This document shows positions 8,442 through 63,489 of a stretch of DNA of 64,000 nt, piece after piece. Origin of the DNA: a virus; the IMG/VR virus record IMGVR_UViG_3300024261_000007, positions 1 through 64,000 of that record, one strand, 5' to 3'. Position 1 is the first letter of the stretch. Every line of letters starts with the position of its first letter. A program made the translations under genes and the position numbers. Under the pieces are notes generated by a model. That model made no database searches and had not been told where the DNA came from. It was given only the letters and a program-made list of their open reading frames with translations.

Positions 8442-8457
8442 TTATATTTTATAATAG

Positions 8458-8467
8458 ATATAAAAGA
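8458..8467 (+). promoter_or_regulatory. Candidate promoter motif ATATAAAAGA, copy 1
   Basis: The 10-mer ATATAAAAGA lies in the 33-nt gap before the gp25 gene. The same 10-mer occurs in two other gaps, before the 123-aa gene upstream of terminase (46543-46552) and before the scaffold gene (56195-56204). It resembles a relaxed T4 late promoter. Given the AT-rich background this is only suggestive. Confidence 0.25.
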
Positions 8468-8474
8468 GCAACAA

Positions 8475-9068: not shown

Positions 9069-9084
9069 AACATTGGAGTAAAAT

Positions 9085-10932: not shown

Positions 10933-10961
10933 TTATTTTATTGAAAAAGAGCTTGTAAACC

Positions 10962-34746: not shown

Positions 34747-36321
34747 ATGAATGACTTTGTAATAAATACACTCCCAGATATTAGCTGTAATATTTCAAAT
34801 AAATTTGTGTATAATTTTTTCAATCCAAATGAAGATATCATAGACGACAATATAATAAACATAAATACAGAAGAATTTTCTAATATAGAACGATATGTTG
34901 ATATTAATATTTTATACAAAAACAATATTAACTGTGTTACTTTACAAAGTTTTTTAGACACTGATGTGCTTGACAAACTAAGAGGTCTGGACAAATCAGA
35001 AATAAATAGAGACTTGCTGGAAAAAATAATTAACTTTAACAACAAAAAAGTTGTTTCGATTAATATGTCACCTAAAAAAGAAGAAATATTATTAGAAGAG
35101 ATAACTAATAAAAACTTAACTTTTTCTGAGTATTCTATTTTTTTTGAACAAATGAAAAATAATAAAAAAATACACATTAGTCCAGAAAATAAAAAATATT
35201 TTATAAGTGCTAATAACAAAACTCCTTTTTTAGAAAGCTTTAAAAAAATATTAAATCAAAACAACTTTGACTTTTTAAAAAATTATAATTCTAAAAACTT
35301 GCCTAAGCAAGAACACTCTTCTTTTACAAGATTTACAAACAATATAAAAAATCATTACTGTATGGTTGGTTTTTTATTAGAAAAATATAGTGTAAACGAG
35401 GATGACAAACTTAATTATAAAAGTTGTGTCTTTCTTTATAATAGAATACTGGACAACATATCTTCTAATTCAGAAAACTCTGAGTTTATTTCTACAGAAG
35501 TCATTAGTTTAAAGGATCAGGCTGTAAAATATGGTTCAACATACAAATATTATTTAACACCCATTTATTTGATAAATTTACCCCAACCAAAAGATTATTA
35601 TTACACTGACTTTTATTTCTGTAGAGATACTGCTATTAGTGAAGAAAAAGTAGTTTGTAAGGAATATGAAAGACCACATTCAACTTCTTTTATAAAATTC
35701 AAGTATTTACAAAACAAATTTTTAATGATTGATTGGGCAAAACCTGTCAATACACAAGGTGATATTTTTGGATATCAAATATTTAAAAGAGATACAATAG
35801 ATGAACCTTTTAAATTAGTTAAACAAATAGAATTTTTACCCAATGAGAGACAATTTAAAAGAAACGAAAATATTGATGTTACAACTGATGTTTCTTCTTT
35901 TGTCAATCATGTTACTACTTTTATTGATAAAGAATACGACAAAAACAAGATACAGATATATACAATATGCACCTTAGACGCTCGAGGCTACTCGTCAAAT
36001 TATTCACAACAATATGCAATATATTATAATTTTAATAAAAAAAATATAAGTATAGATCTAATAAGTCCTGAAGGTGCTCCTTTAAATTTGCCTAATTTAC
36101 TTATTCCAAGAAAAACAAAATTGTTAAATGAAAATAAGTCTATTGTAGAAGAAATATGTTTTGAATCAGGAGTTAGTAAAATTTCTGTTTACTTAACGCC
36201 TGATCTTATTAATATTTTAGATGACTCGAGTTCAAGAAATATATTAAGCGATATTTACAAATTTAATATATTTAGTTTAGATAAAAACATAAATCATATA
36301 AGCAATATAAGAATTACATAA
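34747..36321 (+). CDS. Virion protein with fibronectin-III-like domain, 524 aa
   Basis: About residues 328-428 read as one fibronectin-III-like sandwich: LMIDWAKPVNTQGDIFGYQIFKR, a hydrophobic KQIEFLPNER segment, and IQIYTICTLDARGYSSNYSQ, where the Trp, the Gly-Tyr strand and the final Ser-rich turn are in the usual places. FnIII and related Ig-like domains are frequent on phage tails and are thought to help adhesion. The N-terminal 320 residues are unassigned. The gene starts directly at the stop of the 1690-aa gene. Confidence 0.5.
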   Translation: MNDFVINTLPDISCNISNKFVYNFFNPNEDIIDDNIININTEEFSNIERYVDINILYKNNINCVTLQSFLDTDVLDKLRGLDKSEINRDLLEKIINFNNKKVVSINMSPKKEEILLEEITNKNLTFSEYSIFFEQMKNNKKIHISPENKKYFISANNKTPFLESFKKILNQNNFDFLKNYNSKNLPKQEHSSFTRFTNNIKNHYCMVGFLLEKYSVNEDDKLNYKSCVFLYNRILDNISSNSENSEFISTEVISLKDQAVKYGSTYKYYLTPIYLINLPQPKDYYYTDFYFCRDTAISEEKVVCKEYERPHSTSFIKFKYLQNKFLMIDWAKPVNTQGDIFGYQIFKRDTIDEPFKLVKQIEFLPNERQFKRNENIDVTTDVSSFVNHVTTFIDKEYDKNKIQIYTICTLDARGYSSNYSQQYAIYYNFNKKNISIDLISPEGAPLNLPNLLIPRKTKLLNENKSIVEEICFESGVSKISVYLTPDLINILDDSSSRNILSDIYKFNIFSLDKNINHISNIRIT

Positions 36322-36348
36322 TTATTAGTTCAAGAAAGGACGTTTTAG

Positions 36349-37104
36349 ATGGGCTTTTTAAATCATGCAACAAACAATATAATAATTGACGCCGTTTTAA
36401 CAGAAAGAGGTCGAGAGTTACTAGCAAAAAATGATGGTTCATTTAATATTACATCGTTTAGTTTTGGCGACGACGAAGTTGATTATTCAATTATATCAAG
36501 ATATGGTCTTCCAATTGGAAAAGAAAAAATTGAAAAAAACACACCAATCTTTGAAGCAAACCCAAATGAAAATATTGCGATAAAGCACCCACTTATTACT
36601 TTTACAAATTCACTTACAAGTTTAGAAAATATTCCGACTCTAAAAAGAGTAGACACTACAGGTAACGTAAATAGCAACATATCTTTATTCGATACAAGAA
36701 TAAACGACAATGATTCTACTTCAATTCAATACACTATCGAAATTAGAAATAATGTACCTAGCCTTGAAGGTGCTCAAATTTTAAATGAAAACATTACTGA
36801 TAATAGAATTTATGTTAAATTGCATAGTGACTTATTAAGCATCGTTAATAACACACCTTTAGATTCAGACTTAAATAATATTGCAACTTATTCTATTCCC
36901 ACGTCAACAGTTTCAAGTGGCGAATGGGCAAATCAAATAACAGCTTCATTTACCATTAATTCAAATGGAATAGTTAGTGCTTCAGATTTTACAAAATATT
37001 CATCTCTATCAAATAGCAGTGTAATAAACACTTCAGTTCAGGTAATAGGATCATCTTCAGGTGCATCTTTAATAATTCCTGTTTCAATAACAAGACAAGC
37101 TTAA
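36349..37104 (+). CDS. Conserved phage virion protein with TERGR-type N-terminus, 251 aa
   Basis: The product begins GFLNHATNNIIIDAVLTERG, then RELLAKNDGSFNITSFSFGDDEVDYSII. I recognise this opening from a conserved but unnamed structural family of marine and other tailed phages, usually encoded near baseplate and fibre genes. The C-terminal half is Ser/Thr/Ile-rich and beta-like and could be an Ig-type domain (VSIPVSITRQA ending). A good AAAGGA site lies 9-12 nt before the ATG. It shares the N-terminal layout with the 366-aa protein at 25227. Confidence 0.65.
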   Translation: MGFLNHATNNIIIDAVLTERGRELLAKNDGSFNITSFSFGDDEVDYSIISRYGLPIGKEKIEKNTPIFEANPNENIAIKHPLITFTNSLTSLENIPTLKRVDTTGNVNSNISLFDTRINDNDSTSIQYTIEIRNNVPSLEGAQILNENITDNRIYVKLHSDLLSIVNNTPLDSDLNNIATYSIPTSTVSSGEWANQITASFTINSNGIVSASDFTKYSSLSNSSVINTSVQVIGSSSGASLIIPVSITRQA

Positions 37105-37119
37105 AAGAAAGATTATAAA

Positions 37120-38676
37120 ATGGCAGTAGACTTAACAGGATCATACGTTTCTATAAATCCAAGTAATATTAGCACAGAAAAAACATCAGTACAACAGCTT
37201 GTTGATATTGTTCAGACTGATATTGCGAGTGTAAATACAAATACTAGAAAATCTTATGAAGTTTTTACTAGCGGAAATATTGATAGTACACAAAGTATTA
37301 GTAGCTCTTTATTTCAAACAGTTTATGATCAAGACTTTTCTCTAGGCACAGCAAATTCTTTATTTGATATATCTGTTGGTTCTTTGGGCGAGTTTGATTT
37401 AGATAACAACTCTGTTGTGGTTAACACATTAAATTTACCGCTTAATGACGGAAAAATTAATACTACAAGTATTCCATCAGCAACGATGCTTAGAGAAAAA
37501 ATTCACATTTACAAGCAGTTTGCACAAAATTTATTAGGTGATTCTAGTAAATCTTTTTTTACACCTCATTCTGCGACTGTAGAAGAAGCTGATGCTACTG
37601 AGATTTCTGCTAATCCTGGAACTTATAGTAAAAAAATTAGAGGTGCCATTTTTATTTGTTTTAAAAGGCTTTTTACAAGGGACAATATCTATAAAGGGTC
37701 TTTTGGTCTAAGAATTAGAAAAAATGCATCAACTTTAATTTCTGGAGGAGGTTTAGCAATATCAAATATTAACGATGAGGTTCTTGCAAATGATGTTAAT
37801 CCAGCAGCTGCAAACACAGTAATCTATGATGATCGATTAGTTGCAACAGGTCTTGGGATTAGTCCTGTTGCAGGTGAAGTTTCAACATTATCAGATGCTT
37901 CGAACAACTATGTTGGATTAATATTTTATGACAGTGGAATTATAGTATTAGATGTTGAAAGAGCTTTCAACCCGCAACAAATAATTAGAGGGTTAATTAC
38001 AACTACTAGACAAGGTGATTCAACAAATGAATTAGACGGACCTTTTTGGTATTCAGGAATTGAAGATGCTCAAGGTGATAATTTTTATTACCCAGTATAT
38101 ACTACAGATAGAGAAGGTACTTATAATACACTTAACTTTACTGCTGATGGTGTAGTATTGTATCATGAACATGGAACTCTTGAAGTAACTGATATTCAGC
38201 CTTCTGAGAATGATTTAACTCATGGTCTTTTAACTGAGTATAGTGTCGCAAATCAAAATTTCTATACAGACGCAAGTATACTTGAAATAGACGGAACATC
38301 TATTCATGAGGGGAGTTTATATCCTAGCTTATGGACAAAAGGAACTATTGATGATGTAATTGATCATATATGTACAACAAGGTTTGATAGAGGCCAAAGA
38401 TCAGCAATTACATTTAGAAATGAAACTATAATTAATTCTTCATTAATATTTTGTAGAGCATCACACAATCAGTTTAACTATTCTACTAATCCAACTTATA
38501 CAGATTCAGACAGTAGAATAATTGCTAAAACCACAGACAATAGAACTTTTACGTACGTTACAACAATTGGATTATATGATGCAGAAGGTTTTTTGCTTGC
38601 TGTTGCTAAAACTTCAAGACCTATAGAAAAAAATCCATCAACTGATCTCTCTATCAGAATAAGACTTGATTATTAA
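37120..38676 (+). CDS. Conserved phage virion protein, 518 aa
   Basis: This protein has features I know from unnamed structural proteins of large tailed phages: FTRDNIYKGSFGLRIR, YVGLIFYDSGIIVLDVERAF, FCRASHNQFNYSTNPTY, and the ending TYVTTIGLYDAEGFLLAVAK followed by TSRPIEK and IRIRLDY. The C-terminal block is shared with the next protein (979 aa), which ends in the same order of motifs. The composition is more balanced than that of the giant neighbours. It lies 15 nt after the 251-aa gene and 8 nt before the 979-aa gene. A tail or appendage component is likely; the exact role is unknown. Confidence 0.65.
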   Translation: MAVDLTGSYVSINPSNISTEKTSVQQLVDIVQTDIASVNTNTRKSYEVFTSGNIDSTQSISSSLFQTVYDQDFSLGTANSLFDISVGSLGEFDLDNNSVVVNTLNLPLNDGKINTTSIPSATMLREKIHIYKQFAQNLLGDSSKSFFTPHSATVEEADATEISANPGTYSKKIRGAIFICFKRLFTRDNIYKGSFGLRIRKNASTLISGGGLAISNINDEVLANDVNPAAANTVIYDDRLVATGLGISPVAGEVSTLSDASNNYVGLIFYDSGIIVLDVERAFNPQQIIRGLITTTRQGDSTNELDGPFWYSGIEDAQGDNFYYPVYTTDREGTYNTLNFTADGVVLYHEHGTLEVTDIQPSENDLTHGLLTEYSVANQNFYTDASILEIDGTSIHEGSLYPSLWTKGTIDDVIDHICTTRFDRGQRSAITFRNETIINSSLIFCRASHNQFNYSTNPTYTDSDSRIIAKTTDNRTFTYVTTIGLYDAEGFLLAVAKTSRPIEKNPSTDLSIRIRLDY

Positions 38677-38684
38677 GAAAAAAC

Positions 38685-41624
38685 ATGTCTTTTATACCTC
38701 TCGATCATAAAAATTTTATTGTTAATAAAATAAAAAACAAGTCTAAAATAGAGTATATTAATTCTGATGTTTCTTCTTATGTTGTTGATCAAAAAATAGA
38801 TTCGAAATCATTAATTAATAATAACAATTTTAACAATTTTACTTTTGAAGAATTAAATATTAGTGATGAAGATACTCTGAAAGTAATAAAAAGAAATAGT
38901 ATTGTTGACTTTTTCAATAAAGTTTCAAATCAAAATAACTTTTCTTACATAGAAGATGATCAAGAAAAAAATTATTTTGATCATATAAAAGATCCTTTGC
39001 AAGACGAAGAAGTTTTAAATGACAGTATAAAGCAATATAATTTTAAAAATTATACTAAAATTGAAAAAAATAATCAAAAATTTTTAATAGACTGCAGAGA
39101 GAAAAATAAAATAGATGTTGTTAAAAAATCACTGTACGACAACTATAGTTATAATTACAGTTTAGATTATTATAAAGATTTAAATAAAGGTTACTGTAAT
39201 TATAACAGTATTAACTTTTTTTCTCTGTCTGATGACTTAAACTTAAAACATTCAAATGCAATTATTTGGCCCAATTTAGTAAATAACAATAGCAATCAAT
39301 ATGACTTTCTGCAAAAAGATTCAACTATTAGTTTTAGTTTTAATCTAAGAAACAAAAAAGATTTTTTAGGAATACATCCTCAGTGTGTTTTACACATTCC
39401 TGATTTTTTAAATGTATATGTAGTTAGAAATAATGATTTAATAAACAAGTATAAAATATGTATTGTAGCAGGTAGTAATACAAGAAAAAACTTTCATGAT
39501 ATAATAAATGATTTTTCAATTGATTTTGACAGCAATCAAGAAATCTATATAAGCCAAGAAAGTGTATACGTTACACAAGGTTTGACTATAAACGAAAATC
39601 ATTGGTATAACTTAAGTATTGTATTAAGTAAAAACAGAGAATTAAACAATAATCAAGATTTAAGATCTCTGGAGTGCTTTATAGATGAAGATGTAATTTT
39701 TTCAATAAAAGATTTGAATTTTAATAAACACCAAAATAATCTATTTAATTCTTATATTTGCTTAGGTAATAAGATTAACTATAAGGAAGATGACAATCTA
39801 TATACATTAGATTACAATGACGTTTTTTATTATTTGTTCGGAAGTAGAAAAGATGAAACAAGTCTAAGCGGCGGACCTTATATTAAAAAAGATATCGATT
39901 ATGGAAAAAATTTTTCATGGGAGGATGATGGATCAAAATTAATTGATAACATTGATTCTTTTTTAGATATTAACATATTAAATAAAATTCAAGAAAAATG
40001 TGAATCTTTTGAAGGAGAGATTCACAACATAAGAATATATTCTAAATCTTTAAAAAAAGATAAAATAAAAGAAAATTCTTACAATACAGTCAAGAGTTTA
40101 TCAAAAGAAAAGGAAATTTATAGTTTAGAGTTTTACGTTCCAGTATTTAATATAAATAGTTACGTAAGTAAAAAATCATTATTCAATCTTAATGTAAATA
40201 GCATTAGTAATATGCATTTTTCATGTATATATAACCCTTACTTTGCTAATAGCTGTGGTGGCTTAGAAATTTCTACTGAGAATTATTTGATTGATTTTGT
40301 AAATTATACAAAGCCTAACGTGGTAGTTGATGGTCATAATCAAATAAACTTTATAGAAAACAACTATTTACATATTAATAATTTATCTATTTCCAGCTTT
40401 ACAGATGTTTTTAACAAAATGAAAAAAGGCATTATGTTTAATAACATTTATCATGATTTAATTGATACTTCTACACAATCTAACGGAAATTTAATTTATA
40501 ATAATCTACTAATTTTACCTAATGATGATGGTAAACTTAAGGTAGATTTTAATATTATTAACGAATTTTTAACAACTATATATCCACAAGAAAAATACTT
40601 TTATGATAATTTTATTGTGCACAATATTTCCATAGAAAACTTATTTAAAGGAAACAAAGAAGAATTTTTCTACCCTCTATGTTTAAATAACACACAATAT
40701 GAACAGTATAGCTTAAATAGCAATCAATCTAATACATTAAGTTTAAATATAGCTGAAAATTTATCATATGATTTCTCTTTAACAAAAGATAAATTTTATA
40801 ATTTCTCAAATTGTCTTTTTCATGACACAAATTTTGAATACGATACAACTAATTATTCTTATGATTTAACCTCTTGTAATGAAGAAATAGTTGATTTACA
40901 TGACGAGCTAAATGAAAATAGTAATTTAAACTTAGACATAAGTCCTGTTATAAGAAATTATTTTAAAGACATAAATTCTTTAAGTTATGAGATAAAAACA
41001 GTTTTTACGGATAGATTTTATATAAATAATAGTTTAGTAGAAGTCAATTATATAAATTATCCTTTAGGATATACAGATTATCAAAAAACTTTTGATTGTA
41101 TGTTTACAACAATATTTAATGTATCAAACAAATATTATAATACAAAAATTGAAAAAGAATCTTTTTTCATAGAAGATAATTTATTTAAAAATTTAAGTTT
41201 ATCATTTAAAGATAACAGTAATGGCTCAATACATAGAAGTGACTGTGAAAGTAAAATAGCAAACTGGAATTATGTAGGAAATATATTTTACAAAGAAGGA
41301 ATATGTACTTTTTTTAGGCCAGAGTTTAGCTATTTTGGTAAAAATGATTTTAAATGTAGTTTTGATGCTGTTTATAATATGTTTGTTCATGAAATTAATA
41401 TACAAGCTAAAAACGGATTTTACAATAAAAGTTTTAATAGTTCTTATGATATCAAATTAAGACAAGACGAAAACTCTTTAAATTCTGAGTCTTCTTTTGT
41501 TTATGTATCTGATATTAATTTACATGATGAAAATTTTAATATTATAGCAAAAGCAAAGCTTTCAAGGCCTGCGCCTAAAAGATTAGAAGATAATATACTT
41601 TTTAGACTCAAAATGGATTATTAA
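38685..41624 (+). CDS. LamG-containing virion protein, 979 aa
   Basis: About residues 208-465 form a LamG/concanavalin-like domain (STISFSFNLRNKKDFLG, ENHWYNLSIVLSKNRELN, LECFIDEDVIFSI, closing with FEGEIHNIRIYSKSLKKDKI). The last 45 residues (FVYVSDINLHDENFNIIAKA, KLSRPAPK, LFRLKMDY) are a diverged copy of the end of the 518-aa protein before it. It therefore looks like that protein family carrying an added sugar-binding-type domain. It closes the tail block; its stop overlaps the ATG of the RuvC-like gene by one base. Confidence 0.6.
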   Translation: MSFIPLDHKNFIVNKIKNKSKIEYINSDVSSYVVDQKIDSKSLINNNNFNNFTFEELNISDEDTLKVIKRNSIVDFFNKVSNQNNFSYIEDDQEKNYFDHIKDPLQDEEVLNDSIKQYNFKNYTKIEKNNQKFLIDCREKNKIDVVKKSLYDNYSYNYSLDYYKDLNKGYCNYNSINFFSLSDDLNLKHSNAIIWPNLVNNNSNQYDFLQKDSTISFSFNLRNKKDFLGIHPQCVLHIPDFLNVYVVRNNDLINKYKICIVAGSNTRKNFHDIINDFSIDFDSNQEIYISQESVYVTQGLTINENHWYNLSIVLSKNRELNNNQDLRSLECFIDEDVIFSIKDLNFNKHQNNLFNSYICLGNKINYKEDDNLYTLDYNDVFYYLFGSRKDETSLSGGPYIKKDIDYGKNFSWEDDGSKLIDNIDSFLDINILNKIQEKCESFEGEIHNIRIYSKSLKKDKIKENSYNTVKSLSKEKEIYSLEFYVPVFNINSYVSKKSLFNLNVNSISNMHFSCIYNPYFANSCGGLEISTENYLIDFVNYTKPNVVVDGHNQINFIENNYLHINNLSISSFTDVFNKMKKGIMFNNIYHDLIDTSTQSNGNLIYNNLLILPNDDGKLKVDFNIINEFLTTIYPQEKYFYDNFIVHNISIENLFKGNKEEFFYPLCLNNTQYEQYSLNSNQSNTLSLNIAENLSYDFSLTKDKFYNFSNCLFHDTNFEYDTTNYSYDLTSCNEEIVDLHDELNENSNLNLDISPVIRNYFKDINSLSYEIKTVFTDRFYINNSLVEVNYINYPLGYTDYQKTFDCMFTTIFNVSNKYYNTKIEKESFFIEDNLFKNLSLSFKDNSNGSIHRSDCESKIANWNYVGNIFYKEGICTFFRPEFSYFGKNDFKCSFDAVYNMFVHEINIQAKNGFYNKSFNSSYDIKLRQDENSLNSESSFVYVSDINLHDENFNIIAKAKLSRPAPKRLEDNILFRLKMDY

Positions 41625-42181
41625 TGTTATGTATAGGATTAGATATATCAACTTCAATAGTAGGAATATCAGTTTTTAAAGATAAAAAGCTTGATAAATT
41701 AAATTATGTTGATTTAAGTAAAGAAAAATGTATTTTTAAGAAAGCTAAAATGTTTGAAAACTTTTTTCTAAAAAATATTGTAAATATTGGATTTATAGAT
41801 TACATTTATATAGAAGATATACTACAGAGTTTCAAAAGAGGTTTATCATCAGCTAATACTCTTATGAAGTTAGCAAAGTTTAATGGTATAGTTTCTAATA
41901 TAGTATATAATAATACTGGTTTAATACCTGAATATATAAATGTAAATACTGCTCGTAAAACTTTAGAAATAAAAATTGACAAAAACTCTTCAGTTGATAA
42001 AAAAGAACAAGTTATGATGTGGGTAGATAAAGATTTAAATGAAAATTATTCTTGGCCTACTAAAGTTATAAGTAGAGGACCAAATAAAGGACTTGTAAAA
42101 TATGAAAAATTTTGTTATGATATGGCAGACGCATATGTAATTTGTAAAGCTGGTATTATAATAAATGAGCAAAATCCATAA
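41624..42181 (+). CDS. RuvC-like Holliday-junction nuclease (RNase H fold)
   Basis: The 185-aa product has the RuvC acidic residues in order: Asp7 in IGLDIST, Glu64 in YIYIEDIL, and Asp166/Asp169 in CYDMADAYVI. The Ser/Thr after the first Asp and the LMKLAKFNGIV helix also fit. RuvC-like phage enzymes resolve branched DNA before packaging; this would replace T4 endonuclease VII, which belongs to another fold. The ATG overlaps the previous stop (TAATG), and its 3' end overlaps the primase gene by 17 bp, so the block is translationally coupled to the tail operon. Activity on four-way junctions is inferred from the family. Confidence 0.75.
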   Translation: MLCIGLDISTSIVGISVFKDKKLDKLNYVDLSKEKCIFKKAKMFENFFLKNIVNIGFIDYIYIEDILQSFKRGLSSANTLMKLAKFNGIVSNIVYNNTGLIPEYINVNTARKTLEIKIDKNSSVDKKEQVMMWVDKDLNENYSWPTKVISRGPNKGLVKYEKFCYDMADAYVICKAGIIINEQNP

Positions 42182-43139
42182 AAGAATAGATTTTTTTGAC
42201 AAATATTTCCCAAACCATACCTTATCAAAAGATGGAGTTAATTTAAATATTTGGTGCCCTTTTTGTAAACACGAAAACAAACATAAAAAAAAGATGGTAG
42301 TACACTTAGAGAAGTGTCTTTATCATTGCTGGACGTGTGATAAAAAAGGTGCAAATATACCATACCTCATCAGTAAATTTAGTTCTAAACTGACTAAAAT
42401 AGCTGAACAGTTGTTTACTAAAAAATTAAATAATAATTCTGTGGATTTGTTTGGAAATAATCTTCTAATAGAAGAAGAGCACGATCCTGTTGTTTTGCCG
42501 ACTAATTTTGTTTTTTTTGTTGATCAAATCGAAAGTTTTAGCCCGGACACAAAAGCCGTGTTGAAATACGCAGTTAGCAGAGGATTTACTAAACATAAAC
42601 TTTTTATGCTAAGAGCAGGCTTTTCAACAAACTCTGAGTATAGAAGATATTTGATTTTACCTTCATATGATGCTAATGGAAACTTAAATTATTATGTTTC
42701 AAGAAAAATAGATGTAGGAACCGGAGATAGTTTTAAATACAAAAATGCAAATTATCCAAAGAAAAAAATAATATTTAACGAAATTAACATTAACTGGAAG
42801 TTACCCTTAACAATTGTAGAAGGGCCATTAGACTTAATAAAAACAAATGATAACGCAACATGTTTATTAGGCTCTTCTCTCACAGAAGATATGCTTTTAT
42901 TTCAAAAAATTGTTAGTCATAAGACAACAATTAACTTAGCTTTAGACTCTGATGTTTACAATAAAAGTTTAAATATTGCCAGCTTGTTACATCGATATGA
43001 TATACCAGTTAATATTATTGATACAAGAGGTGCAGATGATGTTGGTGATATGCATCCAGAAGATTTTAAAAGAAGATTGAATTTGTCCAAAGAATTTAAT
43101 AAAAATGACAAGCTTTTAGCTAAAATTCGGAGTTTATAA
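42165..43139 (+). CDS. 61: DNA primase, T4 gp61/DnaG-like
   Basis: The 324-aa product has an N-terminal zinc-binding domain (Cys31 and Cys34 in WCPFCKH; Cys55 and Cys58 in HCWTCDKKG) followed by a TOPRIM domain with Glu219 in IVEGPLDLIK and Asp261/Asp263 in ALDSDVYNK. This is the order and size of the T4 gp61 primase (342 aa), which makes RNA primers for lagging-strand synthesis with the replicative helicase. No helicase gene is in the window. The gene overlaps the RuvC-like gene at its 5' end and the SbcD-SbcC gene at its 3' end by one base. Confidence 0.85.
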   Translation: MSKIHKRIDFFDKYFPNHTLSKDGVNLNIWCPFCKHENKHKKKMVVHLEKCLYHCWTCDKKGANIPYLISKFSSKLTKIAEQLFTKKLNNNSVDLFGNNLLIEEEHDPVVLPTNFVFFVDQIESFSPDTKAVLKYAVSRGFTKHKLFMLRAGFSTNSEYRRYLILPSYDANGNLNYYVSRKIDVGTGDSFKYKNANYPKKKIIFNEININWKLPLTIVEGPLDLIKTNDNATCLLGSSLTEDMLLFQKIVSHKTTINLALDSDVYNKSLNIASLLHRYDIPVNIIDTRGADDVGDMHPEDFKRRLNLSKEFNKNDKLLAKIRSL

Positions 43140-46100
43140 TGTTTAAATGCGCGCATATAAGTGATGTTCACTTTAGAAGCCTTAAGCGGCACAACGAATA
43201 CATTCAGGTTTTTAACGAAGTTTTTGATAACTTAAAAAAATTAAATTTAGACTGTATTTTTATTGGTGGCGACATTGTACATTCAAAAACACAAGGAATT
43301 ACTCCAGAACTTATTGATATTTTAAATTGGTGGTTTACTTCTTTAGCAGATATAGCCCCTACTCACGTTATCTTAGGTAATCATGACGGATTAATCTTAA
43401 ACGAAGATAGGCAAGATGCAATTACACCAATTGTTAACGCATTAAACAATCCAAACATTTTTCTTTATAAAAAAAGCGGAGTATACCCGTTTTTTAATCT
43501 ACCAAATGGCCAGCAAATAAATTGGTGTGTTTTTTCTTGTTTTGATGAAAAAGGTTGGGAAAACGTAAAGCCTTTAGAAGATGAAATTAACATTGCTTGT
43601 TTTCATGGCGCTGTAACTGGCTCTGTAACTGATATTAATTGGGAGCTTGAAGGAGAGGTCAATTTAAATTTCTTTAAAGGCTACGACTTCGGTTTTTTAG
43701 GCGATATACATAAGTTACAATATTTAGATGAGGAAAAAAGAGTTTTATATCCGGGCTCAACAGTCCAACAAAATTACGGTGAAGACGTATCTAAAGGATT
43801 TGTTTATTGGGAAATAAATAGTAAAAATGATTACGTAAGTAAATTTATTAAAATTAACAATCCACATCCTTTTTTAACTTTAAACTGGAGAGGATCTGTT
43901 GAAGAAACAATAGAATTTGCCAGCAAAGTAAAAAAAAGAGTAAGATTCAGAGTTAAATCAAGTGAAAGTATTTCGCAAGCTGAAATAAAATTATTACACT
44001 ACTATCTTAAAACTGAAAAGGATGCACATGAAATCGTATACCAAGTAGTGCCAAAAGATGACGAAACAAAGCATTGTAGCAGTGAAGAATATAAAAAGTT
44101 AAGTGGCTACAATATACGAAATTCTTTTGATAGGAAAACTTTAATTAACGAGTTTTATGAAAGTTTGGATCAAGAAGTAATAAACAATTTAGATAAGATA
44201 TTTGAAAAAACTCTTGACAAAATTCCTGAAGATCTTAAGGATGTATTTGGTCAAAAATGGTCTATTAATAATTTAAGTTTTGACAATACTTTTTCTTACG
44301 GAAAAGACAACTTTATTGATTTTGATAAAATGTCTGGCGTGGTGGGTATATTTGGAAATAATCGAGCAGGAAAATCTTCTATACCCGGTACTTTAATGTA
44401 TACATTGTTTAACACGACTGATAGGGGCTCTTTAAAAAACCAAGATATTGTAAACATAAGAAAAGGTTTTTGTAATACTAAAGCTAAAGTTACAATAGGT
44501 GCAGAACAATATTTGATTGAAAGAGAAACAATCAAAAAAACAAATAAAAAAGACATAACTACAGCAACTACAAATTTAAAGTTAACTTCTTTAAATAGTT
44601 TTGAAAATGAGTCTGAAGAGCAAAGAAGAGAAACAGAAAAAACCCTTAAAAAGTTAATTGGGACTTCAGAAGACTTTTTGTACACTACGTTTGCTTCGCA
44701 AGGAGAGATGAATACTTTTATTAATGAAAAAAGTAGTGCAAGAAGAACAGTGTTATCAAAATTTTTAAACATTAACATCTATGATGAACTATACAATAAT
44801 TCTCGAGAAGACTATTTATACTTAAAAAGTAGACTAAACAACACTGAAGAAAAAAACTGGTCTGTCTTAATTGAAGATTCATTTAAAGAAATTAAAGAAA
44901 ATGAATTAAAAATATCTTTAAATGAAGCAGAAATTTCTGAATTTAGAAATGATTTAATTAAATTAAATATAGAGCTTAACAATATTTTAAGCAAAACAAA
45001 AAAACACCCATCAGGTCATACACTCAAGACAGCTAACGAAGAGCTTAGCTATAATGAAAATAAAAAACAAGACAATATTAACAAAAAGTCTTTAATGTTA
45101 GAAAAAATATTAGAAATTGAAGAAAATTTAGAAAAAATAAACAATTTCAAAGAAAACTTTTCAATAAAAGATTTAGAAGAAGAAAACAAAAGAATACAAG
45201 AAATAGAAAAGAAAGTTATTAATTTAAAAAATACTCAAAAGAGTGAAAATTTAAAAAACAATTCTTATGAAAATGAAATTAAAATATTAGATCAAGTTCC
45301 TTGCGAAGATAAGTTTCCAAATTGTAAATTTATTAAAAAAGCACATCAAGCTAAAAAAGAAATTGGTGGAATAAAAGAAAATATAAATTTAATTGAAGGT
45401 GACATTTTAGAATTAACCACAGTGTTAAGAAGTCTTAGAGAAAAAGAAATTGATAGCAAAATAAATAAATACAACAGTATATTGAAAAAAGAGTATAAAT
45501 TAAAACTAGATAAAGAAAATACAATACTACAAATATCTCTAAAAGATAAAGAGTTTAGCATCGTTAAAAAAGAAAACGATAGCTTGATAAATATTATTAA
45601 TGAGTTGAAAAGTTTAAACGTAGATCAATTTGTAAACAAAGAATTGTCAATTCAAGAAAAGATTGGTAATGCGCAAGACAATATAAACAATTTAAACTAT
45701 AGAAACTTAGAAATAAACAAGCGAAAATTTGAATTAGAAAGAAACATTCAAGATTACAACAAAGAAAGAGAAGAATATAACAAGTTAATAATTGACTTTA
45801 GGCTTTATGATCTTTTCAACCACTCAGTTTCAAAAAAAGGTATTCCTACAATGATTATTAATTCTTTTCTTCCGAGAATAAACACAGAAATAAACAATAT
45901 TTTAAATGGTGTAGTTTCTTTTAATATCTCTATTGAAGAAGACGAGAAAGGAAACAATTTAAATGTATATATTGACTATGGAGACTCTAAGCGAGTAATT
46001 GAATGTGCAAGTGGAATGGAAAAAATGATGACTTCTATTGCAATTAGAGTTGCGCTAATTAACATATCATCTCTTGCACGATCAGATATATTTATTATTG

Positions 46101-46282
46101 ATGAAGGCTTTGGCACACTTGACGACTCAAACATTGAAGCCTGCGGTAGATTATTAAATAGTTTAAAAAAATATTTTAAGGCTATAATAGTAATATCACA
46201 TGTTGATGCAATTAAGGATATAGTTGACAAAAATATAATGATTTCAATAAAAGGTAAAGACTCACATGTTCGATTTGAATAA
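43139..46282 (+). CDS. Single-chain SbcD-SbcC (Mre11-Rad50, gp47-gp46) fusion
   Basis: The first 230 or so residues are an Mre11/SbcD phosphoesterase: Asp9-x-His11, GGDIVH (Asp45, His48), GNHD (80-83), His156, GDIH (188-191) and YPGS. From about residue 360 the chain becomes Rad50/SbcC: Walker A GNNRAGKSS (406-414), long coiled coil, a hook-like C-x6-C (Cys722, Cys729), signature ASGMEK (957 onward), Walker B with Asp988-Glu989, and the SHVD switch near 1020. Such complexes trim DNA ends for recombination. In T4 and bacteria the two halves are separate genes; here one 1047-aa frame covers both, with no internal stop. The start overlaps the primase stop (TAATG). The next gene begins inside its last 17 bp. 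Confidence 0.88.
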   Translation: MFKCAHISDVHFRSLKRHNEYIQVFNEVFDNLKKLNLDCIFIGGDIVHSKTQGITPELIDILNWWFTSLADIAPTHVILGNHDGLILNEDRQDAITPIVNALNNPNIFLYKKSGVYPFFNLPNGQQINWCVFSCFDEKGWENVKPLEDEINIACFHGAVTGSVTDINWELEGEVNLNFFKGYDFGFLGDIHKLQYLDEEKRVLYPGSTVQQNYGEDVSKGFVYWEINSKNDYVSKFIKINNPHPFLTLNWRGSVEETIEFASKVKKRVRFRVKSSESISQAEIKLLHYYLKTEKDAHEIVYQVVPKDDETKHCSSEEYKKLSGYNIRNSFDRKTLINEFYESLDQEVINNLDKIFEKTLDKIPEDLKDVFGQKWSINNLSFDNTFSYGKDNFIDFDKMSGVVGIFGNNRAGKSSIPGTLMYTLFNTTDRGSLKNQDIVNIRKGFCNTKAKVTIGAEQYLIERETIKKTNKKDITTATTNLKLTSLNSFENESEEQRRETEKTLKKLIGTSEDFLYTTFASQGEMNTFINEKSSARRTVLSKFLNINIYDELYNNSREDYLYLKSRLNNTEEKNWSVLIEDSFKEIKENELKISLNEAEISEFRNDLIKLNIELNNILSKTKKHPSGHTLKTANEELSYNENKKQDNINKKSLMLEKILEIEENLEKINNFKENFSIKDLEEENKRIQEIEKKVINLKNTQKSENLKNNSYENEIKILDQVPCEDKFPNCKFIKKAHQAKKEIGGIKENINLIEGDILELTTVLRSLREKEIDSKINKYNSILKKEYKLKLDKENTILQISLKDKEFSIVKKENDSLINIINELKSLNVDQFVNKELSIQEKIGNAQDNINNLNYRNLEINKRKFELERNIQDYNKEREEYNKLIIDFRLYDLFNHSVSKKGIPTMIINSFLPRINTEINNILNGVVSFNISIEEDEKGNNLNVYIDYGDSKRVIECASGMEKMMTSIAIRVALINISSLARSDIFIIDEGFGTLDDSNIEACGRLLNSLKKYFKAIIVISHVDAIKDIVDKNIMISIKGKDSHVRFE

Positions 46283-46526
46283 AGGTTGGCATAAAATTGA
46301 TAAAGATACAGAAGAAAAATTTATAGGTGCTACAAGATTTGTAAAGCCTATAAACGCTGATCATTGTTCAACTTTTTGTCCTGTATGTGATATAGCTATA
46401 GCGACTATAGAAGATGTTAAAGTTATGAAAAAAGAAAACTGTTGTGAAGATTGTTACAATACTTACTATTTTTTAAATAAAGAAAAATGGGAAAGTGGGT
46501 GGCGACCCAATATAAATAATACGTAA
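46266..46526 (+). CDS. Small zinc-binding protein, 86 aa
   Basis: Two CxxC pairs (Cys38/Cys41 in FCPVCD and Cys60/Cys63 in CCEDCY) suggest one structural zinc site; the protein ends in an aromatic NKEKWESGWRPN segment. I know similar short phage proteins (CxxC pairs followed by NKEKW and GWRP) but no function for them. The ATG lies inside the end of the SbcD-SbcC gene and has AAAGG at good distance. Its last codons contain an exact TATAAATA (46511-46518), so the gene end doubles as a likely late promoter for the terminase group. Confidence 0.7.
   Translation: MFDLNKGWHKIDKDTEEKFIGATRFVKPINADHCSTFCPVCDIAIATIEDVKVMKKENCCEDCYNTYYFLNKEKWESGWRPNINNT
46511..46518 (+). promoter_or_regulatory. TATAAATA late-promoter sequence before the terminase block
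   Basis: An exact T4 late-promoter octamer lies 47 nt before the ATG of the 123-aa gene that precedes gene 17. The gp55-like sigma factor at 5179 is the protein expected to read it. It lies in the last codons of the 86-aa gene, as is common in compact phage genomes. Chance matches exist in such AT-rich DNA, but this one falls at the border between DNA-metabolism and head genes. Confidence 0.5.
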
Positions 46527-46564: not shown

Positions 46565-46936
46565 ATGGATTATGACTTAATACAAAATTTAGGATGTGCA
46601 ATCGACAATGTTTACAATAATATTTCAGAAAAACCTGATCGACGAACAACTTCAAAGCTGGTTAGTGAAAAGCTTGTTATTGAATATCAAACTATTGTAA
46701 CAATTGCAAAAGATAGTGATTTTAAATACCAGATGGATATGATCAAGTCTGAATCTAAACAAATGATAGACTCAAGGCTTAAGTCTATTAAAGAGTGTTT
46801 TAAAGAATCTGCTAATAGAGCTTTAAAGACAAAAAAAGAAAGTGACTATGATAAAGTTGAAACTTTAACAGTCAGCCCTTACAGTCCTATTAGAACATAT
46901 AAATATTCGTTTTGTGTAAATTACGGTATTAGTTAA
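46565..46936 (+). CDS. Unrecognised 123-aa protein upstream of large terminase
   Basis: A mostly helical, Lys- and Ser-rich protein; its end is a short beta-like segment (RTYKYSFCVNYGIS). Its stop overlaps the ATG of gene 17, the usual place of the small terminase gene. I see no clear match to gp16 helices here, whereas the 124-aa protein at 5977 does show such a match. It may still help packaging because of translational coupling. No zinc site or membrane segment. Confidence 0.55.
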   Translation: MDYDLIQNLGCAIDNVYNNISEKPDRRTTSKLVSEKLVIEYQTIVTIAKDSDFKYQMDMIKSESKQMIDSRLKSIKECFKESANRALKTKKESDYDKVETLTVSPYSPIRTYKYSFCVNYGIS

Positions 46937-48564
46937 TGGCTAAAAAGTTAACAAGACAGTCACAAATAAATGAAATTATAAAATGTGGCAAAGACCCTGT
47001 ATACTTTATGAATACGTATTTAAAAATACAGCACCCAATTAGAGGTTTAATTAAATTTAATACGTTTTCTTTTCAAGATGACTGTGTTAAAGAGTTTAAT
47101 CAACATAGATTTAACATTATTTTAAAGTCCAGACAGCTAGGTTTGTCAACTCTAGCAGCAGCCTACTCAGTTTGGCAGTCTATTTTCTATAAAGAAAAAA
47201 ATATTTTAATAATTGCTACAAAGTTAGCAGTTGCACAAAACTTTATAAGAAAAGTAAAGACTTACATAAAATCTATGCCAGGGTGGTTACTTGTTCCGAC
47301 TATAACTGCAAACAATAAACAGCAAGTAGAATTTTCAAACGGGTCACAAATAAAAGCAGTACCTACTTCTGAAGACGCAGGTCGTTCTGAAGCCTTGACT
47401 TTGTTAATTGTAGACGAAGCTGCTTTTGTAAGAAACTTTGACGAATTATGGATGGGTCTATATCCTACACTTTCAACAGGTGGTCGCGCTATAATACTAT
47501 CCACGCCTAACGGTGTTGGTGGTCAATATCACGAAATATATACTAAGGCAGAAAGAAAAGAGAATAAGTTTAATCCTATTAAGTTAATGTGGGATGTGCA
47601 TCCTGAACGTGGTGATGAGTGGTTTGAAAAAGAAACTAAGAATATGTCGCAAAAACAGGTTGCGCAAGAGCTTCTTTGCGACTTTGCTTCTTCTGGCGAC
47701 ACATTTCTTTCAAACGACGTTTTAGAAAATATTCGAATTTTAACTTCCATGCCAATAGAAAAAAGTGGCCCTGAGTACAATGTTTGGTATTGGGAATATC
47801 CTATTGAAGGTGTCAATTATATTATATCAGCAGACGTTGCAAGAGGTGACAGCGGTGATTATTCAACTTTTCATGTTATTAACAACAAAGACAAAACAGT
47901 TGCAGTAGAGTTTAGAGGTAAAATACCTCCAGACCACTTAGGTTCTTTAATATATGACACAGCAAGACGTTTTAATAATGCACAAGTGTGTCCAGAAAAC
48001 AATGCCTATGGGTACTCAGTCTTATCAAAAATTGCTGATCTTGGTTATAAGAATATATTTTTTAACTCTGAAAAAGAAAAATATCGATATCTCTATGGAG
48101 AAGGTAATAATATTGGCAAAGCTGGGTTCAATACAAATAAAGACAGCAGAGAAATTATATTGGCAAACTTTGAAGAGTCCTTGAGGAACGGAAGAATTAA
48201 AACCAAATCAACAAGACTTCACTCAGAATTAAAAACATTTATATGGAATGGTAAAAAAGTTGAAGCTATGAAAGGTTACAATGACGACTTAGTAATGTCT
48301 TTAGCTATAGGCTGTTGGCTAATGGACAGTAATGCTGATACGTATAACGTTTCTCAAATACAACATGCAGATGCAATGTTAAAAGGAATGCAAGTTAACA
48401 ATACACAGGCAGATAAAACAGTTATGAAAACTTTTTATAAAAGCAAACATACAAATGTTGATCCTTTTGTTCCTGTTATGCTCCCTGATCATAAATTTAG
48501 TGGTAATGGTAAAATAACAAAAAAGAATCCTCTCGGGGATCTAAGCTGGCTCATAGGAAAGTAA
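46936..48564 (+). CDS. 17: Large terminase subunit gp17
   Basis: The 542-aa product has both terminase activities. ATPase: an adenine-binding FQDD motif, Walker A SRQLGLST (65-72), Walker B LLIVDEAAF (Asp160, Glu161) and the coupling motif ILSTPNG (187-193). Nuclease: Asp300 in ISADVARGDSGDYS, Glu354 in CPENNAYG and Asp450/Asp451 in GYNDDLVMS. It cuts concatemeric DNA and pumps it through the portal. Length is near T4 gp17 (610 aa). Portal follows after one base. Unlike T4, the sheath and tube genes 18 and 19 are not between genes 17 and 20. Confidence 0.92.
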   Translation: MAKKLTRQSQINEIIKCGKDPVYFMNTYLKIQHPIRGLIKFNTFSFQDDCVKEFNQHRFNIILKSRQLGLSTLAAAYSVWQSIFYKEKNILIIATKLAVAQNFIRKVKTYIKSMPGWLLVPTITANNKQQVEFSNGSQIKAVPTSEDAGRSEALTLLIVDEAAFVRNFDELWMGLYPTLSTGGRAIILSTPNGVGGQYHEIYTKAERKENKFNPIKLMWDVHPERGDEWFEKETKNMSQKQVAQELLCDFASSGDTFLSNDVLENIRILTSMPIEKSGPEYNVWYWEYPIEGVNYIISADVARGDSGDYSTFHVINNKDKTVAVEFRGKIPPDHLGSLIYDTARRFNNAQVCPENNAYGYSVLSKIADLGYKNIFFNSEKEKYRYLYGEGNNIGKAGFNTNKDSREIILANFEESLRNGRIKTKSTRLHSELKTFIWNGKKVEAMKGYNDDLVMSLAIGCWLMDSNADTYNVSQIQHADAMLKGMQVNNTQADKTVMKTFYKSKHTNVDPFVPVMLPDHKFSGNGKITKKNPLGDLSWLIGK

Positions 48565-60093: not shown

Positions 60094-63000
60094 TTAAGAT
60101 AACAGCATTTTGATGTATTGTCTAATAAGCGAGTCCATTTGTAACTCTGCTTCTTCTTCTGGCGTATTTGCTCTTAAGCTCGAAGCCTCTTCGGGAAAAG
60201 CCATGGCCATGTGCATTCCTGCATGCTTGCCCATTTTCTGGACCATTTCAAAAGCAATTTCTTTTGAATATCGAGTACCGAACATGCTTTTGTTTGTGTT
60301 GAATTTTCTATCTCTAAACAAATCTTTAAGAGTTTCTCTTACAATTGAAAGTTCTTTGCCGTATAAACTATCACTTCCATCTTCAGAAATACCGATAAAG
60401 TTTTTAAAGAATTTTTTAATCCCGGCAGCTGAATTATAGTTTTGTCCTGATGATAATGTAGCGATTTTTTGCATAACATCTTTAGGCAAAGCTTTATTGT
60501 TTTGAGTAAAGACATCAATTAAAATGTTTATAAACCGTGTATGCAATTCAGTCTTTCCGTAATGTCTTATGACATGATTTAAATGATTTCTTAAAGTATT
60601 TGTTACTTCTTCACTGCATATTATTTGCGTGTTAATTGTTTGAATTGCTGAAGTTGCTAAGCTTTCTTCGTAATTTGATGCGTAACCTGTGTTATCTTTA
60701 GAAAATAATTGTTTTACGAATTCACCAAAATAAGATTTTCTTTTTTCAATGGGTATGAAGTCTAAAAATGTTAGTATTAAAGGTACGACTTTTGCTTGAT
60801 TTTGGCTAATGTAAGAAATATTATTTTTATTGACGCTGTCAATAAAATTTGATGATTCTATGAATATTTTAGACTTATTTTGAATATTTTTTATTATGTT
60901 ATTAATTTGTTCGCCTCTCATAATACGCATGCTGATCTCGTAAAAAGATTCACCAATGACTTTAATCTTCAAAACATCATCTAATAATTTAAAAATCTCG
61001 TAAGTATATTTAAAATCAAAACCCTTTACAGTGTTATCTAAAATAGCTGTGTTGAAAAAATTTCTACATGCTTCTTGCTCTACCATCTCATTGTCATTGT
61101 CAAACATGTTTCCGACAAACTCTGAAATATTTTCTAGTGTCTTTGCGTTTAAGTCTGTAACATTTTTATTGTATACATTTAAGAATGTTATAAAGTTTCC
61201 AAAATAGTCTGCACCTTTAAAACCATCTTTGTATGTAGTCAAATCATTAAATATGCTAAATTGCTCTTGATCATATCGTATATTAAACGGGTTTCCTTCC
61301 ACTATATTGAAAGCAATTAGTTTATATAAAATATACGCGTCTCTATTTTTTAAATAGTCTTTTATTAGTCTGAACGTTTCATGTTCTGATAATATATTAT
61401 TTTTTATCTCTTGATAAGAACTTTTGTCAAGAGATAAAAATCTTCTTTCTTCGTCACTTTTGTCTAGGAATCTTTTTGGGAATCTTGCATCTTCAATTAT
61501 ATATCTTGTCGCAAGATTTAAATCGATGCGCTTTTTTATGTCTTCATTTGGATCTTTGCTTTCTTTTTGTAGTTGATTTATAAACAGATCTGAATATCTA
61601 AAAATTAGACAAGATATAAAAACTTCAGGTCTAAATGAATCTCTTGACAGACCTGAAGATAATCCTCCTGACACTTTGTTTATCGAATTTATACCAAATT
61701 CTGTAATATAAGATTTTATGCCTTGTGAATTCATTAACATATCGTATATTGCTATATTGTTTTTTGTAAGCCCTTCACTTTTGTTGTTAATATTGCAAGG
61801 ATTAACATATACTCTGTAATCATCGCTTTCTAGCGATAGCTTTATTATTCTTTTTAAGTTATTTGCGTTGTTTGTATTGCATGCAATTTCTAAGGCACTT
61901 TTAAACTCATCAAAGTTGAGTTGATAACGATAGTGTTTAAGAAAAGAATACGTCATTTTTTTTTGAATTTCTAAAAAAGCATTAAAATATCTTGGGTGAG
62001 ATCTTTGATTTAGTATTTTGTTTTTTAAATTATTATAAATTTCTTCTCTAGGATACATGCCCTGAGTACGGAAAAAGTCACCAAAATACAACGTCTCAGC
62101 ATCTAAATTATCAAATATATAATAAGCTACACTATCCACAATTACTTCAGCTGCATCTTCTTTAGAGAGCTGTGTCTCTGTGCACATTAACTCATATAAA
62201 CCCATAGTCTGTTCAACGCCTGAAAATGCGAGTGATTGTGAAAAACAATTTTTTAATTCGTTGACATCATTAAGTTTACTAAGTCCTATTACATTATCTT
62301 CAATCTCAGAAATGTTTGATTGTAAGTTAACTTGTTCTGGTAGCTTTGCAATTTCTGTTTTCATTTCATTTGTTATGTATTCATCCAGAAATTCGTCATC
62401 AACATGATTATTGTGAAAGTCACAAGTTTCTTCTACGTCAATAGTTCCGTCAAATCGAACTTTAAGACTAATTGCATAAGCATCTTCACCAAAGTCAGCT
62501 TTTTTTGAATGTGCAACTGCTACATACTGACTTGAATTATAGCTGCTCCAAGTTGATTCTCTTCTATATGTGCACCAAGTCGATTCGCTCGCTCCCAATA
62601 CACTTCCAAGCATATGCTTAAATGCTTTGTAGTTTGTTGGATAAACAATTAACATATTATCGTCTTCATACACTTTTAGCAATGATTCAGCTAACATTTT
62701 CTCAGAAACTACAGATGTCTTTTTATAACCTTTTGCAAATGCCATTCTTTTCATTATAATATTAAAGTCAAAGTTTCCCTTTTCGATCTCATCTTTTTCT
62801 TCTTTTCTTGCAATGTCATAATATACACGCATGTAAAGATCAGCAGCTTTAATACAAGTATCGATATCTACGTCAACAGACTTTTCAACATATTGTATTA
62901 TGCTGTCAAACATCAACAGAACCTTTTTAAATTCAATAAACTCCCCATCAGAATTTTTATGTTTTCTAAGTTGTCGAATTAAAATTTCTTCAGCTTCTTT

Positions 63001-63489
63001 GAGCTTCTTTTTATTTTCTTTTCCTTTAAGTTCTAATAGTTTTGTTACATATACTATTTTTATAATTTCTAAAGCAATGTTTTTCTCTTTTACAGAAGTT
63101 GCCTCGTAAAGTTCAAGTTGATATTCCTTTTCTTTTTCAGATAGTGTAATAGGCGTCAAGTCTTTTTCGTTTACTTTAATACCTTTGCTTTTTCTAATAT
63201 CAACACTTTTTTGTCTATCTTTTTCTTTTGACGCATACTCAGCTTTTAATTTATACAAAAACTCATTTTTTTGCATCGCTGTTAAATATTTTCTTTTTTT
63301 AAATAAATTGTCATCTATTTTGTCGAAAGCTTCTTCAACAGAGCTTATTGTAGGATCACCAATTAATTGAGGTTTTTCTTTGCAAAGCTTGATTAATTTT
63401 TCTAAAAAGTTTTTTGGAGTTAAAACAGCCATCTCGTTTAATAACATACTATTTTTATAGAAAATCTCTTTTAGCGAATATTTTTTCAT
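60094..63489 (-). CDS. 1131-aa WCT-motif protein, possible packaged internal head protein
   Basis: This is the only gene on the minus strand. Residues about 280-370 (LIVYPTNYKAFKHMLGSVLG, then STWCTYRRESTW with Trp305-Cys306-Thr307, then VRFDGTIDVEETCDFHNNHVD) resemble the core of a phage protein family with a conserved W-C-T motif that I know only as uncharacterised. The rest is helical and repeat-like, with no membrane segment. The N-terminus (MKKYSLKEIFYKNSMLLNE-M) resembles T4 capsid-targeting peptides and contains an L-N-E site at 17-19 for the prohead protease. I infer that it may be packed in the head and injected, as T4 Alt is. AAGG precedes the ATG, and TATAAATA lies 19 nt upstream. 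Enzymatic function is unknown. Confidence 0.7.
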   Translation of the reverse strand: MKKYSLKEIFYKNSMLLNEMAVLTPKNFLEKLIKLCKEKPQLIGDPTISSVEEAFDKIDDNLFKKRKYLTAMQKNEFLYKLKAEYASKEKDRQKSVDIRKSKGIKVNEKDLTPITLSEKEKEYQLELYEATSVKEKNIALEIIKIVYVTKLLELKGKENKKKLKEAEEILIRQLRKHKNSDGEFIEFKKVLLMFDSIIQYVEKSVDVDIDTCIKAADLYMRVYYDIARKEEKDEIEKGNFDFNIIMKRMAFAKGYKKTSVVSEKMLAESLLKVYEDDNMLIVYPTNYKAFKHMLGSVLGASESTWCTYRRESTWSSYNSSQYVAVAHSKKADFGEDAYAISLKVRFDGTIDVEETCDFHNNHVDDEFLDEYITNEMKTEIAKLPEQVNLQSNISEIEDNVIGLSKLNDVNELKNCFSQSLAFSGVEQTMGLYELMCTETQLSKEDAAEVIVDSVAYYIFDNLDAETLYFGDFFRTQGMYPREEIYNNLKNKILNQRSHPRYFNAFLEIQKKMTYSFLKHYRYQLNFDEFKSALEIACNTNNANNLKRIIKLSLESDDYRVYVNPCNINNKSEGLTKNNIAIYDMLMNSQGIKSYITEFGINSINKVSGGLSSGLSRDSFRPEVFISCLIFRYSDLFINQLQKESKDPNEDIKKRIDLNLATRYIIEDARFPKRFLDKSDEERRFLSLDKSSYQEIKNNILSEHETFRLIKDYLKNRDAYILYKLIAFNIVEGNPFNIRYDQEQFSIFNDLTTYKDGFKGADYFGNFITFLNVYNKNVTDLNAKTLENISEFVGNMFDNDNEMVEQEACRNFFNTAILDNTVKGFDFKYTYEIFKLLDDVLKIKVIGESFYEISMRIMRGEQINNIIKNIQNKSKIFIESSNFIDSVNKNNISYISQNQAKVVPLILTFLDFIPIEKRKSYFGEFVKQLFSKDNTGYASNYEESLATSAIQTINTQIICSEEVTNTLRNHLNHVIRHYGKTELHTRFINILIDVFTQNNKALPKDVMQKIATLSSGQNYNSAAGIKKFFKNFIGISEDGSDSLYGKELSIVRETLKDLFRDRKFNTNKSMFGTRYSKEIAFEMVQKMGKHAGMHMAMAFPEEASSLRANTPEEEAELQMDSLIRQYIKMLLS

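Follow-up and report, generated by a model that had tools for sequence, protein, structure and literature searches.

A gene joining Mre11 (SbcD) and Rad50 (SbcC) in a single open reading frame (ORF) was analysed in a 64,000-nucleotide stretch (hereafter the window) of the IMG/VR virus record IMGVR_UViG_3300024261_000007, a contig of 133,024 bases. The gene lies on the plus strand at positions 43139-46282, runs from ATG to stop with no internal stop and encodes 1047 amino acids (aa); its ATG shares one nucleotide with the stop codon of the upstream primase gene. Pfam analysis of the protein returned Metallophos (PF00149) at residues 3-191 (E = 5e-10, above cut-off), AAA_23 at 379-598 and SbcC_Walker_B at 950-1007 (each E about 1e-4), the PF13476 and PF13558 matches falling just under the curated cut-offs, and the PHROGs profile phrog_77 ('SbcC-like') matched at 1e-44. 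The first-pass annotation of this DNA had proposed that Mre11 and Rad50 are joined here in one polypeptide and had listed the supporting motifs. All of these motifs were recovered (DVH at 9-11, GGD at 43-45, GNHD at 80-83, GDIH at 188-191, Walker A, signature and Walker B), and the fusion is fully borne out by the ORF, its domains and its relatives.

Residues 1-362 match complete SbcD/Mre11 and residues 372-1047 match complete SbcC/Rad50. In profile comparison, T4 gp47 (339 aa) covered residues 2-353 and T4 gp46 (560 aa) covered 373-1024, while a profile of 69 relatives set residue 398 of E. coli SbcD against position 362 and residue 3 of SbcC against position 372; neither partner is thus truncated, and roughly 10-20 residues separate the two. 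The SbcD alignment (residues 172-362 to SbcD 209-398) includes the cap and the C-terminal helix-loop-helix. The two-metal motifs of Mre11/SbcD, a calcineurin-like phosphoesterase, are all present with the sole exception of Asp189, which takes the place of the first His of GHxH; D9, D45, N81, H82, H156 and H191 were kept in all or nearly all aligned fused sequences, and H11 was also conserved. In the second half, the elements of a bipartite ABC ATPase (Walker A, Q-loop, signature, Walker B, D-loop and H-loop around an antiparallel coiled coil) were all found, including Walker A NNRAGKSS, signature SGMEK at 958-962, Walker B/DE at 984-989 and H-loop His1021, and the Walker A, signature, Walker B and H-loop columns were among those kept in at least 93 of 98 sequences. 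This half matched SbcC and Rad50 structures in hmmsearch. An AlphaFold2 model of the whole protein had a mean pLDDT (predicted local distance difference test) of 85.5 and a pTM (predicted template modelling score) of 0.48, at which the relative placement of domains is unreliable. The full-length Foldseek matches of the model comprised fused viral proteins as well as solved Mre11-Rad50 (MR) complexes; fused giant-virus proteins (Tupanvirus, Yasminevirus and Harvfovirus) ranked highest, with proteins of Tenacibaculum phages next.

Relatives are encoded in at least 567 IMG/VR stretches. A search of phages for the same fusion, as envisaged in the first-pass annotation, was productive: of 100 relatives drawn from collections of viruses, phages and genomes, 97 had both halves in one ORF. 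Because the fusion itself served as query, this sample favours fusions, and three of its loci duplicate contigs that were already in it. The three exceptions were a gene split by an inserted ORF (L003), a gene cut by a contig end (L012) and a true lone Mre11 (L105). Cultured jumbo phages also carry a fused metallophosphoesterase/'DNA repair exonuclease', namely the Tenacibaculum phages pT24, PTm1 and PTm5, Chryseobacterium phage MA9V-1 and Sphingomonas phage PAU.

The stretch from the helix-loop-helix to the first Rad50 strand (at residue 373 in the model) measured 11-16 residues across 98 sequences; for the Thermotoga complex, Yoshida, Claverie and Ogata (2011; PMC3175470) put the number needed to span the 28 Å gap at 9-12. 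At the junction (residues 331-372), the ratio of non-synonymous to synonymous variation (pN/pS) was 0.25 over 43 pairs of relatives, far under 1, and the junction is thus under codon-level purifying selection. The earlier suggestion that fusion fixes a 1:1 stoichiometry follows directly from the single polypeptide, but the companion suggestion that it restricts how the subunits turn on each other found no support. The helix-loop-helix already ties Mre11 to Rad50 in two-protein complexes (PMC3175470); the low-confidence segment 307-319 precedes these Rad50-binding helices and the linker follows them. As the predicted flexible segment lies before this anchor and the linker after it, the nuclease should, according to the model, still swing about as freely as in a complex of separate proteins.

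Canonical Mre11 carries GHxH, the first His of which (P. furiosus His206) is the usual ligand of metal 2. GDIH, listed by the first-pass annotation among the phosphoesterase motifs, is indeed present, but it is not the canonical Mre11 motif. Asp189 was found in 98/98 aligned fused family members, whereas GHxH with His was found in all ten unfused Mre11 proteins compared (T4, S-SKS1, S-WAM1, BSP38, Twort, OC, ANB28, MTATph1, E. coli and the lone L105). Among other fused proteins, Tenacibaculum pT24 and PTm1 and Chryseobacterium MA9V-1 have Asp, and Sphingomonas phage PAU and the Deferribacter plasmid protein have His. Since the last two are fused and retain His, we rejected the idea that the replacement is a consequence of fusion. 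Mimivirus R555 carries the same replacement, Asp242 (PMC3175470).

The hook of the Rad50 half also departs from the usual pattern. The window protein has C-x6-C in place of the CxxC zinc hook, and among the 96 family members that cover this region 89 have C-x6-C and 5 have CxxC; the unfused phage Rad50 proteins with a detectable hook have CxxC. Assignment to the Rad50 ATPase family stands without a CxxC hook because of the phrog_77 match at 1e-44. These two variants, the fixed Asp for His206 and the C-x6-C hook, merit a bench test; they make two features assumed to be essential in MR complexes directly testable.

The fusion is not new in kind, such fusions having been known since 2011 from Mimivirus, bacteria, plasmids, eukaryotes and one Bacillus phage (PMC3175470). 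The earlier statement that the two proteins are normally separate holds for those of T4, E. coli, SPO1-like phages and cyanophages, but in the present aquatic phage family fusion is the rule. The hallmarks of viral fusions in that study, one polypeptide with Mre11 first and the helix-loop-helix and linker retained, were found in the window protein. It resembles Mimivirus R555 in this N-Mre11/C-Rad50 order, in keeping the helix-loop-helix and a short linker, in the His206-to-Asp replacement and in an Asp-to-His change in GDxxD (GDIVH in the window protein); R555 differs in being longer (1351 aa) and in belonging to a giant virus of Acanthamoeba. Abundant marine R555-like sequences were argued to be phage genes, with primases on the same scaffolds (PMC3175470), and the window gene likewise adjoins a primase gene. 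The 2011 metagenome scaffolds were too short for full alignment with R555, whereas here full-length genes sit on long phage contigs and back that inference.

The proteins of Tenacibaculum pT24, PTm1 and PTm5, Chryseobacterium MA9V-1, Sphingomonas PAU and Microcystis phage Mel-JY01 are alike in being single ORFs with Mre11 followed by Rad50, and those of pT24, PTm1, MA9V-1 and Mel-JY01 share GDIH. The pT24/PAU group differs in length (1301-1326 aa), in its CxxC hooks and, in PAU, in GHIH, with about 15% identity in structural alignment; Mel-JY01 shows 29-34% identity and differs in its CxxC hook. T4 gp47/gp46 are homologous over nearly the full length of both halves, with the same expected role in recombination-dependent replication, but are encoded by separate genes with two small ORFs between them and have GHFH and a CxxC hook. 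E. coli SbcD/SbcC are the same partners in the same order, the fusion joining the SbcD C-terminus to the SbcC N-terminus; they differ in being separate, in the size of SbcC (1048 aa versus about 680 aa for the Rad50 half here), in GHIH and in the CPLC hook. The SbcDC of Deferribacter desulfuricans plasmid pDF308 (reported in PMC3175470) is likewise an Mre11-Rad50 fusion (1197 aa), but retains His (GHYH), has a CxxC-type hook and branches, with weak support, away from the phage fusions.

Trees built on the Mre11 half, without R555 itself and from collections without Bacillus phage 0305phi8-36 and the C. kluyveri plasmid, grouped the fused viral sequences on long branches. One origin for most of them was compatible with the data (approximately unbiased (AU) test, p 0.43) and was not rejected in a second comparison either, and holding all fusions together, Deferribacter included, gave an AU p of 0.076. 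The weakly separate position of the Deferribacter fusion is consistent with an independent fusion event. With such long branches, the phage fusions may have had one origin or several. A plasmid search with the window protein returned partial Rad50 matches only. A further structural match, over 1129 alignment columns, was a 1009-aa 'recombination exonuclease' of Listeria phage LMTA-57 (BFVD A0A068CB47), which may represent one more fusion or else a false join made during annotation or assembly.

The features of the locus are collected in Table 1. The usual gene order, in most relatives with enough flanking sequence, was RuvC, primase, MR, small Cys-rich protein, 123-aa protein and terminase. 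The same 133 kb contig encodes a UvsX-like recombinase, SSB, DnaB-like helicase, exonuclease, PolA domain and ribonucleotide reductase, as well as a T4-type portal and gp23. It contains one PF00149 match and one phrog_77 match, both in the fusion gene, which is therefore the only MR found in the contig; in 13 further large viral contigs, too, phrog_77 matched nowhere but in the fused ORF.

Table 1. Features of the fused Mre11-Rad50 gene and its neighbours (window positions)
Feature	Position	Strand	Basis
RuvC-like Holliday junction resolvase	41624..42181	+	phrog_159; conserved position
DNA primase (CHC2 zinc ribbon), directly upstream of fusion gene, 1-nt overlap	42165..43139	+	PF01807, phrog_47; similar gene near MR in 83 loci
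GGAG, ribosome-binding-site-like, 6 nt 5' of fusion-gene ATG	43129..43132	+	sequence
Complete fused Mre11-Rad50 (SbcD-SbcC) gene, 1047 aa	43139..46282	+	ORF list, Pfam, relatives
Mre11/SbcD phosphoesterase domain, residues 1-240 (D9, H11, D45, N81, H82, H156, D189, H191), approximate boundary	43139..43858	+	Pfam PF00149 3-191, conservation, model
GDIH motif, 188-191, Asp for usual first His of GHxH (P. furiosus His206)	43700..43711	+	Asp in 98/98 aligned fused sequences
Cap (DNA-binding) domain, about residues 241-304	43859..44050	+	model secondary structure; aligns with matching part of T4 gp47
Probably flexible segment, about 305-328, between cap and Rad50-binding helices	44051..44122	+	pLDDT < 50 at 307-319
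Helix-loop-helix 329-359, equivalent of Mre11 Rad50-binding domain	44123..44215	+	model helices 329-339 and 345-359; conserved hydrophobic positions; SbcD C-terminus aligns to 362
Fusion linker, residues 360-372	44216..44254	+	11-16 residues in 98 relatives; no internal ATG with Shine-Dalgarno-like site in 98 sequences
Rad50/SbcC ATPase N-lobe, 373-547, Walker A about 405-414, Q-loop Gln521	44255..44779	+	AAA_23; SbcC alignment from residue 372
Ascending coiled coil, about 548-720	44780..45298	+	helical in model; pN/pS 0.29 over 601-720
Hook loop 721-732, C722-x6-C729	45299..45334	+	C-x6-C in 89/96 fused sequences covering it; better conserved than flanking coil
Descending coiled coil, about 733-897	45335..45829	+	model
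Rad50/SbcC ATPase C-lobe, 898-1047: signature SGMEK, Walker B and DE, D-loop, H-loop His1021	45830..46279	+	PF13558, phrog_77, PDB Rad50 matches
86-aa Cys-rich (zinc-finger-like) protein, overlaps 3' end of fusion gene	46266..46526	+	ORF list; adjoins MR in 77 loci
T4-type large terminase, downstream in cassette	46936..48564	+	PF03237; within 1.5 kb of MR in 84 loci

The fusion gene is real, intact and conserved, and it is probably functional. We consider, with a probability of about 0.9, that it encodes an Mre11-Rad50 (SbcD-SbcC) complex in single-chain form, belonging to an aquatic phage of T4 type, and that this complex would form M2R2 and resect ends for UvsX-driven replication and repair. 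The linker of 11-16 residues would connect the N-terminal metallophosphoesterase (the presumed nuclease), the cap and the helix-loop-helix to a full Rad50 ATPase of phage size, coiled coil and hook included. Most likely, two such chains would associate by their Mre11 heads and their Rad50 heads, with the hooks possibly taking part, into the usual M2R2 machine, as homology to the two-protein systems suggests. ATP binding and hydrolysis would then clamp DNA ends and gate the two-metal nuclease, and resection of the ends would allow the phage UvsX recombinase to drive recombination-dependent replication and repair. Homology and gene context together make such a T4 gp46/47-like, ATP-gated end resection feeding UvsX strand invasion the best-supported role. 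Several points weigh against this reading: the contig comes from metagenome assembly, is classed as linear and may be incomplete, the case for this protein is built on sequence and a predicted model, the pTM of that model is low, and nuclease activity, here predicted from homology, could differ because the usual metal-2 ligand His206 is replaced by Asp. A compact and obligately 1:1 MR protein of this kind could aid structural work, a use already foreseen in the first-pass annotation, as well as single-molecule work.

The replacement at His206 also bears on the best-surviving alternative, an ATPase and DNA tether of MR type with a weakened or re-tuned nuclease, which would mainly bridge or protect ends instead of cutting them. 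Such a tether would fit the invariance of Asp189 (98/98, against His in the ten unfused Mre11 proteins) and the altered C-x6-C hook, but every other metal and transition-state residue is conserved under strong selection, Asp is a normal metal ligand, and fused phage proteins have either His (PAU) or Asp (pT24, PTm1, MA9V-1), which suggests that the two are functionally exchangeable; we regard it as improbable. A broader proposal, that recombination-dependent replication in a large clade of aquatic T4-type phages depends on a single-chain MR nuclease with this re-tuned site and C-x6-C hook, and that its metal use, cutting mode or tethering is unlike that of all characterised Mre11-Rad50 complexes, is offered tentatively and is considered less likely than not.

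A separate Rad50 half might also be produced from the same frame, by internal initiation or proteolysis, which would leave the fusion as one part of the protein pool. Most MR systems use two proteins, and GTG or TTG with a Shine-Dalgarno (SD)-like site was found within residues 330-400 in 6 of 98 sequences. However, an internal ATG with an SD-like site was found in this region in 0/98 sequences, by a test of limited sensitivity, in which 53 of 90 true starts scored, and no internal start of any kind with an SD-like site lies there in the window sequence; on this test internal initiation was rejected, and a two-product gene is very unlikely. An assembly or sequencing artefact joining two adjacent genes through a missed stop or frameshift might be suspected, as the window is one metagenome contig and Mre11 and Rad50 genes are adjacent or nearly so in unfused phage operons (T4, S-SKS1, BSP38, Twort), but it is refuted for the whole family by a second IMG/VR contig (L007, which may share reads) with 0 mismatches over 9,795 bases (window 35139-44933) spanning the junction, by the 97/100 loci fused in frame with a nearly constant linker length and by the junction pN/pS of 0.25.

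Several further observations were made on the relatives. In L003 (LR756508.1, a 484 kb uncultured phage; 7944-12169), the fused MR gene is broken directly after GDIH by a 305-aa ORF with a zinc-finger-like N-terminus and a TnsA-like endonuclease domain (PF08722); this insertion is probably a homing element or intron, and it gave no Rfam match at the gathering threshold and no group I or II intron-family match at E <= 1. L105 (5992-6825), on a contig binned as Bacteroidales, is a 277-aa Mre11 with GHIH that is related to the fused family and lies near RuvC-like and primase-like genes; no Rad50 half was detected in its 12.7 kb. In phrog_77, P-loop matches begin near profile position 296-303 of 967, suggesting that the profile includes a long N-terminal stretch, possibly contributed by fused proteins, and that its use in annotation may conceal fusions.

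Elsewhere in the virus contig, a 346-aa ORF (G000 108094-109134; L017:7094-8134) has a weak DNA polymerase A match (PF00476, 58-325) and neighbours without matches, and on this match may be a small or split PolA. In the window, an ORF of 1131 aa at 60094-63489 lies on the minus strand, opposite to nearly all other window genes, and had no Pfam match. Finally, six contigs binned as Methylococcaceae, an archaeon, Flavobacteriales, Gemmatimonadetes, Chloroflexi and Deltaproteobacteria (L099-L104) carry the fusion gene, several of them beside a primase-like gene, and are likely phage contigs binned into metagenome-assembled genomes.

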